Assembly (NCBI GenBank): GCA_029866005.1 | Contig: JARXAE010000015.1 | Span: 1 to 64,000, forward strand | Source: Fimbriimonas sp. | Lineage (GTDB): Bacteria; Armatimonadota; Fimbriimonadia; Fimbriimonadales; Fimbriimonadaceae | Reading direction: 5' to 3' | DNA length: 64,000 nucleotides | Part shown: positions 38,673 to 41,199 of the stretch, piece after piece | How the letters are laid out: the number at the start of each line of letters is the position of its first letter | How positions within the stretch are numbered: position 1 is the first letter of the stretch | The notes under the pieces: model-generated | Databases searched by the model: none | What the model saw: only the letters and a program-made list of their open reading frames with translations | What the model was told of the DNA's origin: nothing | Made by a program: the position numbers and the translations under genes

Positions 38673-39536
38673 ATGAACAAGTTCTCGGTGCAGATTTCTG
38701 ATGGACCGCTTGACCTTGACCGAATTGCGCGGAGCGGGCAGATGTTTCGCTGGGTCAAGCGGGGGGAAGTTTGGGCGATCTATGACGGTGATCATCTCCA
38801 CTCGGTTGAACAAGACGGGGAAGTCTTGCTGGTGCAGTCCAATCAGACCGTAGATGTGTTTCGAAGCCTACTTCGACTCGATGAGAATCATGCTGAAAAG
38901 CTCAAAGAAATCATCCGATGCGGTCCCGAACTTGAATCGTGCCTTGATCATCTCAGCGGAATGCGAATGATGCGCCCGGCTTGCGCTCATGAGACCCTGT
39001 TCAGCTTCCTTTGCTCGGCGAACAATCATATTTCACGGATTACAGCAATGGTTTGGAAACTCACGGGTTCGGGGACTCCTCCGACTGCAAACGATGCAGT
39101 CCCGTTTCTTTTGTTGGATCAAATCGCCTCACTCAGTGAGGCAGAACTCCGACAACAAGGCTTCGGTTATCGAGCAAAAACGATTCCAAAAGTCGCACAA
39201 GCCCTAACCACGTCCTTTGAAGACCTGAAAGTGGGCAGCTATGAAGATGCCCGCGCCGGTCTGCTCGCCCTATCGGGCATCGGTCCGAAGCTCGCGGACT
39301 GCATTTGTCTGTTCGCTTTTGACCATCAGGAAGCGGTCCCAATCGATACGCACATCTGGCAACAGCTCACCAAAATCTACTATCCCGATTGGCAAGGAAC
39401 GGCCCTCACGAAGGCAAAATATGACTATGCGGCGGAGGCATTCCGAGACCGCTTTGGGAGCCTTGCAGGGGCCGCCCATCAGTTTCTTTTCGTCGAAAAT
39501 ATGACGAGTTATCGAAAGAAAAATCTGAAAACGTGA
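38673..39536 (+). CDS. 8-Oxoguanine DNA glycosylase, OGG1 type
   Basis: Removes 8-oxoguanine and nicks the strand. 287 residues: N-terminal OGG domain (SGQMFRWVKRGEVWAI), FLCSANNHISRI, and the helix-hairpin-helix GPD core LALSGIGPKLADCICLFAFD with catalytic Lys206 and Asp225 (AVPIDTHIW). The core is closer to eukaryotic OGG1 (GVGTKVADC, VPVDVHMW) than to AlkA or MutM. A TTG at 38592 is in frame, but ATG 38673 gives the usual N-terminus. It lies 123 nt after ligA, same strand. Confidence 0.9.
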   Translation: MNKFSVQISDGPLDLDRIARSGQMFRWVKRGEVWAIYDGDHLHSVEQDGEVLLVQSNQTVDVFRSLLRLDENHAEKLKEIIRCGPELESCLDHLSGMRMMRPACAHETLFSFLCSANNHISRITAMVWKLTGSGTPPTANDAVPFLLLDQIASLSEAELRQQGFGYRAKTIPKVAQALTTSFEDLKVGSYEDARAGLLALSGIGPKLADCICLFAFDHQEAVPIDTHIWQQLTKIYYPDWQGTALTKAKYDYAAEAFRDRFGSLAGAAHQFLFVENMTSYRKKNLKT

Positions 39537-39652
39537 CCTTTTTGTTATTTCCTGTCTACGCAAATTCCAGGTTCAACCCAACCTGAACCCCCTGCTAAAG
39601 ACTGAAACCAAGTGTGCCAAAATAATTATGTAATCGTCGTTTTGTCCGTATT

Positions 39653-39710
39653 GGGGTCGATTCCCCACCGGACCCCGTTGAATGGAAGTCATGCTGTAGG
39701 AGGTGACCCC
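39653..39710 (+). promoter_or_regulatory. Leader RNA with two alternative helices, one covering the ribosome binding site
   Basis: GGGGTCGATTCC (39653-39664) can pair with GGAGGTGACCCC (39699-39710) at 11 of 12 positions (two G-U wobbles, one mismatch), which hides the strong AGGAGGTGA ribosome binding site (39698-39706). Its GGGGTC part can instead pair with a second GACCCC at 39671-39676, freeing the site. The two helices exclude each other. I recognise no known riboswitch consensus; the rest of the 176-nt gap shows only a weak possible -10 near 39627. Confidence 0.5.
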
Positions 39711-39712
39711 GA

Positions 39713-40357
39713 ATGCACAACTCACCACAAAGGGTTAGTTTATTGCTGGTCGGTTTGGTAGGCGTAATGTTCGCTTACGCAGGCCAACCGAAAGAGGAAG
39801 GAATTCAAACGATCTCGGAGACGAAGTCTCTGAAATCGGATACGGTGTACGAGTTCAGCCGTTTAGTAGGACTCGGGCGTATTGTCAAAGTACGCGATGG
39901 TAAAGATGGATCTATCACGAAAGTCTTCAAGCTCTTGAAGAAAGAAGGAAAGATCGTCGGGAAGGAGTTGATCCGAGAAGAGAAGATCGACGCCGTTCCC
40001 ACCACATATCGACTTGGGAATGGTGGCTATAATGCCAGCCGTGCCGGCGGAACATTTAAGGCTAAGAAGGTGCTTACAATGCGCGCTTCGGCTTATGATC
40101 CAGGCCCGCACTCAAACGGAAAGTGGGCAGGAAAAACCACGCTCGGCGTTCGGCCGACCTTCGGCATTGTCGCCGTTGATCCACGAACAATTCCGCTTGG
40201 TTCGATCTTGTTTATTGAAGGTTACGGATTTGGTTACGCTGCCGACACCGGAAGCGCGATTCGTGGAAACCGAATCGACCTCTGTATGAACTCGGTATCC
40301 CAGTGCTACCAGTTCGGACGCAAGACCGTGAAGGTTCACGTACTCGGCAAAAAGTGA
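39713..40357 (+). CDS. G5 / 3D-domain cell-wall protein
   Basis: 214 residues: signal peptide (SLLLVGLVGVMFAYA), a G5-like domain (about 30-90: DTVYEFSRLVGLG, KLLKKEGKIVGKELI) and a C-terminal 3D domain (about 120-212) with MRASAYDPG, FGIVAVDPRTIPLGSILFI, YAADTGSAIRGNRIDL, whose Asp residues mark the MltA-like lytic transglycosylase core. This architecture is shared with YabE and Rpf-like wall hydrolases. A near-perfect ribosome binding site precedes ATG 39713. Ends in a GTGA overlap with rsmA, as yabE lies close to ksgA in Firmicutes. Confidence 0.9.
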   Translation: MHNSPQRVSLLLVGLVGVMFAYAGQPKEEGIQTISETKSLKSDTVYEFSRLVGLGRIVKVRDGKDGSITKVFKLLKKEGKIVGKELIREEKIDAVPTTYRLGNGGYNASRAGGTFKAKKVLTMRASAYDPGPHSNGKWAGKTTLGVRPTFGIVAVDPRTIPLGSILFIEGYGFGYAADTGSAIRGNRIDLCMNSVSQCYQFGRKTVKVHVLGKK

Positions 40358-41199
40358 ATCTCGCCGATCGTGGCGAGCTTGTTGGCTTCCTTCGGAAGCA
40401 TGGCATCGGTGCCGATAAGAGTTTGGGGCAGCACTTTCTGTGCGCCCCAAGCGTCGTTAAGGGCATCGTAGATGCGGCGGGTGTCTATAAGACCTGCCTT
40501 GAAGTAGGCCCTGGACCGGGAATCCTCACTTCCTTTCTGGCGAAAAAAGCCGACCAAATGTACGCTGTCGAGTTCGATGAGCGTATGATTGCGCTCCTCA
40601 AAGATTCGTCTCCGACGTGCCAAGTAACTCATGGAGACGCCCTGAAAGTCGATTTGAGGGCACTTCTCGCAGATTCTCCTCAGCCGAGAGCCCTGGTCTC
40701 GAACATGCCTTACTACATCACGGGCCCGTTGCTGGAGCGGTTTGCGGGGATTCGGGACATGATTGATGTCGCGGTTCTCATGATGCAGAGAGAGGTTGGC
40801 ATCAAGATCGTCGCCCAGCCAGGAGAGCGTGAGCGTGGTGCTCTCAGTGTGATGCTTCAGACCCAGTTTGAAATCAGTAGAGTTTTGAAAGTTCCGCCGG
40901 GAGCGTTTGTGCCTCCTCCCAAGGTTGAGTCGGTCGTTCTGAAATTGATTCCACGCTACGTGGAGCTTCCCAGCACATTCGAGCGAGTTGTACGGGCTGG
41001 ACATAGCCAGCCCAGGAAGACTCTTATCAACTGTCTCGCGGCCACATTTCGCCAAGATCGTCTCGTGATCCAACAAGCGACTGAGGAAGCTGGGCTCACA
41101 GAAAATTCCCGGGGATTCGAACTCACTGAGGATCAATGGGTCAAACTGTCGGAAGTCATCGAGCGGCAGTCATGGATCGAGTCAGTAGCCAAACCATAA
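40354..41199 (+). CDS. rsmA: 16S rRNA dimethyladenosine transferase (KsgA/RsmA)
   Basis: Dimethylates A1518 and A1519 of 16S rRNA with SAM. 281 residues: KSLGQHFLCAPSVVKGIV, SAM motif LEVGPGPGILT, acidic AVEFDERMIALL, and the catalytic NMPYYITGPLLERF, followed by GALSVMLQTQFEI and PPGAFVPPPKVESVVLKLIP. GTG 40354 overlaps the stop of the 3D gene (GTGA); a longer upstream frame to 40303 only reads through that gene. Confidence 0.95.
   Translation: MNLADRGELVGFLRKHGIGADKSLGQHFLCAPSVVKGIVDAAGVYKTCLEVGPGPGILTSFLAKKADQMYAVEFDERMIALLKDSSPTCQVTHGDALKVDLRALLADSPQPRALVSNMPYYITGPLLERFAGIRDMIDVAVLMMQREVGIKIVAQPGERERGALSVMLQTQFEISRVLKVPPGAFVPPPKVESVVLKLIPRYVELPSTFERVVRAGHSQPRKTLINCLAATFRQDRLVIQQATEEAGLTENSRGFELTEDQWVKLSEVIERQSWIESVAKP

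Follow-up and report, generated by a model that had tools for sequence, protein, structure and literature searches.

A candidate cis-regulatory RNA element over the ribosome binding site of the 3D-rsmA operon in an Armatimonadota-like family

RNA control of wall genes and the 3D-rsmA locus

In Actinobacteria, c-di-AMP riboswitches precede genes of the wall-hydrolase type (rpfA, nlpC), and the riboswitch of C. glutamicum probably acts at translation (PMC9960051). In B. subtilis, the yabE gene is under the antisense RNA S25 (PMC8464778). Taken together, these two cases make RNA control of such wall genes a recurring theme. The gene context rpfB/spsB(yabE)-ksgA has also been described (PMC1084345), and it matches the order 3D-rsmA of the locus analysed here.

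The window (the whole stretch of 64,000 nt that was analysed) lies in contig C15 of a genome of 2.81 Mb, and the closest named relative is an uncultured Armatimonadetes MAG (91% protein identity). The genes and signals of the locus are the following:

39713..40357, + strand: 3D/G5 wall-protein gene, yabE-like (Pfam 3D, E 3.4e-18; G5, E 2.9e-4, below cut-off)
40354..41199, + strand: rsmA/ksgA, start codon GTG (Pfam RrnaAD, E 2.7e-47)
39698..39706, + strand: Shine-Dalgarno (SD) sequence AGGAGGUGA, read from the sequence, 7 nt 5' of the ATG
39621..39626, + strand: candidate -10 box AATAAT, with similar letters at the same position in the related loci L002-L006

The product of the first gene has 214 amino acids, and its description as a G5/3D protein in the original prediction holds for the 3D domain, whereas the G5 match falls slightly under the Pfam cut-off. 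The stop codon of this gene overlaps the start of rsmA/ksgA (GTGA, 40354-40357), an overlap that is retained in most relatives, so that the element described below heads a coupled 3D-rsmA operon. The candidate -10 box, as we can only infer, would put the transcript start near 39632-39634; a promoter scan gave no hit. In many other relatives, a GGTATAAM box is found 33-54 nt upstream of the ATG of the 3D gene, and given this distance the element would begin at about the predicted mRNA start in genomes with short leaders. This box, seen at family loci L011-L080 in many genera, is accompanied by no obvious -35 box. About 50 nt upstream of the candidate promoter of the window there is an inverted repeat, GGTTCA..TGAACC (39570-39589); 26 of 64 family loci carry GGTTCAA/TTGAACC ahead of the 3D gene (chance alone would give about 2), and it is possibly an operator or another part of the promoter.

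It had been predicted that the leader holds no ydaO consensus, and the search agrees: no c-di-AMP riboswitch (RF00379) reached the gathering score anywhere in the window, none was found in 39450-39800 up to E 10, and this riboswitch is not the answer at the 3D gene. The class occurs in 74 of the 85 family genomes, and a match is present elsewhere in the same genome (L122:716-856, which is G000:C11:140715-140855; 88.6 bits). This copy lies about 230 nt upstream of a long gene that resembles an S9 prolyl-oligopeptidase-family protein.

The element resembles the ydaO/yuaA leader (RF00379) as a putative cis-regulatory RNA class placed before wall-hydrolase-type genes; unlike that 134-nt upstream aptamer, it covers some 60 nt that include the start codon. 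With yabE and S25 of B. subtilis it shares a G5/3D wall-protein gene, the spsB-ksgA context (PMC1084345) and, as proposed here, control at the level of RNA (PMC8464778). S25 is a long cis-antisense transcript (sigma M and X), whereas the element lies inside the mRNA leader. Another group of known systems is that of the small riboswitches and translational operators embedded in the ribosome binding site (RBS), such as SAM-III/SMK, preQ1 and the ribosomal-protein operators. The likeness lies in size, in the placement over the SD and start codon and in the invariant internal-loop bases; unlike these systems, the element extends to codon 9, and it gives no Rfam match in this comparison even at E 10.

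The conserved element at the start codon

A family motif, CGCAAGAGG-N(3-6)-CC(A/G)A-AUG-CG, straddles the start codon of the 3D gene, about 30 nt downstream of the segment on which the original prediction was centred. In the window, the element and its two arms (predicted pairs of the minimum-energy fold) are placed as follows:

39679..39742, + strand: conserved element over RBS, start codon and first codons (covariance model R1, E 0.0044)
39687..39694, + strand: predicted 5' arm of the element (AGU, CA, UGC)
39715..39722, + strand: predicted 3' arm of the element (GCA, CA, ACU), which starts with the G of the start codon

The core shared by the leaders of the family is made up of CGC/GC, AAGAGG, 3-6 variable bases, CC, RA, AUG and CG. 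Among 59 aligned starts, C stands at -4 in 51 and at -3 in 51, and directly 3' of the ATG there is a C in 57 and a G in 56. Of 85 family genomes, 31 carry the exact motif, as a single copy at the 3D gene (the sole departure is G011, with one extra match), and all 206 other genomes of the phylum are without it; some family members (g40, g4, g43) lack the motif. In many genera a conserved sequence thus keeps its position ahead of a single gene, the kind of distribution by which cis-regulatory RNAs are recognised, and a regulon was rejected because there is one site per genome. CsrA-type GGA sites were dropped because several genera carry AAGAGGCACAACC without GGA.

The window's own copy is degenerate, with GCUGUAGGAGG in place of GCAAGAGGAGG, and it is matched at E 0.0044 by model R1, from whose construction the window and its near relatives had been left out; when the whole genome was searched, the window leader (39679-39742) was the only match. 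R1 also recovers the 3D gene start in 12 further genomes outside the model, ten of them at E values no higher than 3.7e-4. Two more R1 matches, in G038 and G055 from other families of the order, lie away from the 3D gene and seem to be chance hits. The 3D leader L176, which belongs to one of these other families (G038:C64), has the letters CGCAAUAAGGAGGUGUCCCCAAUGCG, a related arrangement (CGCAAUAAGGAGG..CCAAUGCG) seen by eye only. Rfam 15 contains no family for the leaders of the window, L011, L034, L044, L053 and L055, and the best chance matches have E values of 3.3 and 4.6.

To evaluate the structure, 31 leaders were aligned without gaps and compared with shuffle controls that ignore phylogeny. 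The proposed helices are paired in 74.4% of cells, compared with 65.7 ± 1.4 in shuffles, and the covariation score of 0.202 (0.116 ± 0.017 in shuffles, reached by 0 of 500) exceeds all slid controls. Signs of covariation are seen in the outer helix and in the coding-region hairpin; the core helices contribute none because they are invariant, and RNAalifold alone returns only five core pairs. When the outer arms are re-dealt among lineages in a fixed register, which was picked after the data were seen, they match better within than between lineages (p 0.003; p 0.014 without repeated solutions; p 0.003 in the GGAGG-leader subset), and significance is lost once the register is left free (p about 0.1). 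Support for a structured outer helix is moderate, not decisive; constraint on the element as such is well supported. By itself the core is weak, with a consensus of -3.5 kcal/mol.

The constraint extends into the coding region. Across codons 2-9 of the genus set, 93.6% of codons are identical in pairwise comparison where the residue is shared, and the same measure is 42% at codons 10-40 and 37% for the rest of the gene. The series CGC AAC TGC TCA nnn nnn GTG AGT is near-fixed in the genus, and its free codons 6-7, whose residues vary freely, form the loop of UGCUCAC/GUGAGUA, with the serines fixed as TCA and AGT in such a way that UCAC pairs with GUGA. Relatives have hairpins written in other letters (L044, GCUCGC/GUGAGC; L053, UGCUC/GAGCA; L018, UGCCC/GGGUG), and in other family members unrelated residues replace MRNCS and the CGC..GCG core is kept. 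The coding hairpin (codons 4-9; L011 and other genus loci) can be extended to UGCUCAC/GUGAGUA by using the UGC that closes the outer helix (GCAG/CUGC), and since this UGC is common to both, the two structures could exclude each other.

The upstream hairpin in the lineage of the window

The original prediction proposed a two-way switch in which one upstream segment pairs either with the RBS or with a repeated GACCCC, and the features that bear on it are these:

39644..39673, + strand: predicted 5' leader hairpin P1, GUCCG/CGGAC with inner GGGG/CCCC (pairing probability 0.67-0.68)
39653..39664, + strand: 5' strand of the inner P1 helix, which may alternatively pair with the RBS (L001-L003 only)

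The letters proposed are indeed present at 39653-39664 (GGGGUCGAUUCC), 39671-39676 (GACCCC) and 39699-39710 (GGAGGUGACCCC), and 11 of 12 positions of the first and third segments can pair, two of them as G-U. Two mutually exclusive folds are predicted, as proposed, while the competitor had been misassigned: GGGGUC pairs with GACCCC at a probability of only 0.012, and the alternative is instead the local GGGG (39653-39656)/CCCC (39663-39666) hairpin within GUCCG (39644-39648)/CGGAC (39669-39673). With constrained energies of -36.1 kcal/mol for the local hairpin and -34.8 for the RBS-paired fold (-33.8 for the GACCCC alternative), there are two near-degenerate folds in silico, and the RBS pairing of 39653-39664 has a probability of about 0.3 in the window.

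The duplex between upstream segment and RBS reaches -19.7 kcal/mol in the window leader (L001), and dinucleotide shuffles are as good in 10 of 500 cases for the window, in 0 of 500 for L002 and in 1 of 500 for L003 (two relatives 91% identical to the window), so that this pairing is above chance in the lineage. The mean pairing of the SD with the leader is 0.77 in L002 and 0.73 in L003, where the RBS-paired fold is favoured. The whole window leader is not unusually stable against shuffles (z 0.07), and the single informative change among these closely similar sequences, U-G to C-G, lies in the hairpin loop of the other fold. In L004-L006 the RBS letters GACCCC are kept and GGGGTC is absent, with GUUUGUUUGA..UCAAAUGAAC or near variants as the upstream hairpin; L007 and L008 differ again. 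Pairing with the RBS is at shuffle level in L004, L005 and L006 (288, 419 and 243 of 500), and likewise in L007 and L008. Since GACCCC is kept and the upstream hairpin is replaced, a leader hairpin persists in these loci and the anti-RBS pairing does not. A tRNA remnant (GGGGTCGATTCCCC, T-arm-like) was dropped by eye because L004-L008 carry unrelated hairpins at this position.

Long leaders in the family have a hairpin of free sequence between the predicted start and the core (mean z -1.9, 16 leaders), and P1 is the same kind of part; its arm GGGGUCGAUUCC also matches the RBS in the lineage of the window, which is what the original prediction had seen. The idea of an RNA switch at the RBS is plausible as regards RNA-level control, and no known riboswitch accounts for it; the switch itself is not conserved past L001-L003 and is at best a three-species elaboration.

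Proposed role and rival explanations

The observed features are the conservation, the frozen codons, the single copy and the overlap with rsmA. The explanation that we judge a little likelier true than false is an RNA element, embedded in the RBS and acting in cis, that is conserved across one Armatimonadota-like family and controls translation from the 5' end of the 3D(yabE-like)-rsmA mRNA. A small hairpin would hold the SD and the start codon in its loop region; it would have a CGC/GCG closing stem, a conserved A-rich internal loop and GG/CC apical pairs, and the genus would add to it an outer helix (GCAG/CUGC type) and the hairpin within codons 4-9. The likeliest role of the element would be to control translation initiation of the 3D gene, and of rsmA via the stop-start overlap. 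Since the core hardly varies although it is weak (-3.5 kcal/mol), its stabilisation by a bound partner, either a protein or a small molecule, would be likelier than simple self-occlusion; translational control of this kind is also favoured by the single copy and by the placement over SD and AUG. Regulation by the element, its direction and its partner are what we infer. Individual lineages add a 5' hairpin of free sequence, one strand of which can double as an anti-RBS in the three-species lineage of the window.

Other readings have to be weighed against this one. The element could be an unregulated setting, in which a good SD and start context and the local structure fix a constant initiation rate and mRNA stability and respond to no trigger. 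The core does include the SD and the AUG, it is weak by itself, and the free-sequence 5' hairpins fit a stability role; on the other hand, a good SD needs neither an upstream CGCAA, nor CC at -4/-3, nor frozen synonymous codons, and the pattern is absent from other genes, which leaves such a setting unlikely, if still worth serious thought. A two-state switch, in which the opening and closing of P1 decides whether 39653-39664 masks the RBS, possibly driven by temperature, draws on folds only about 1.3 kcal/mol apart and on RBS pairing that exceeds chance in L001-L003 and is the preferred state in L002 and L003. The masking that a thermosensor would need is predicted in these three closely similar species only and is absent in L004-L008; this switch may have been added late to the conserved element and need not be the main device, and as the main explanation it seems rather doubtful.

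The 3D-rsmA operon makes feedback by RsmA attractive, since RsmA/KsgA would bind the leader and repress its own operon, with the 3D gene coupled to rsmA in translation. In E. coli, KsgA reportedly acts by feedback on its own mRNA, as van Gemen is said to have described in 1989. Mimicry of 16S rRNA by the leader was rejected, as the similarity is no better than that of shuffled leaders or other start sites, and rsmA adjoins the 3D gene also in genomes that lack the motif, which makes an autogenous operator improbable. Conservation at the level of DNA or protein (a transcription-factor site, or the unusual signal-peptide start MRNCS) is more improbable still: although no more than about 60 nt separate the conserved block from the predicted promoter and MR hardly varies, codon choice is frozen while residues 6-7 vary freely, the TCA/AGT serines keep their pairing, family members without MRNCS retain the CGC..GCG core, and the paired changes suggest RNA. 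As for the preferred cis-acting element, it is a long shot that it represents a new ligand-sensing RNA class of about 60 nt, restricted to one family, whose aptamer would enclose the SD, the start codon and the first codons and would be dedicated to coordinating remodelling of the wall by the 3D protein with the maturation of ribosomes by RsmA.

A motif at the start of one gene in many genera, together with frozen synonymous codons, is the typical look of known cis-regulatory RNAs, and here a candidate of this type without a match in Rfam heads the 3D-rsmA operon of the family. This operon ties the gene of an enzyme for ribosome maturation to that of a wall hydrolase-like protein, a pairing of 3D and ksgA-type genes that has been noted in Gram-positive bacteria, without explanation there. 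The element probably sets the amount of protein made from the 3D gene and rsmA, and it offers a concrete, testable handle on the question of whether they share one control.
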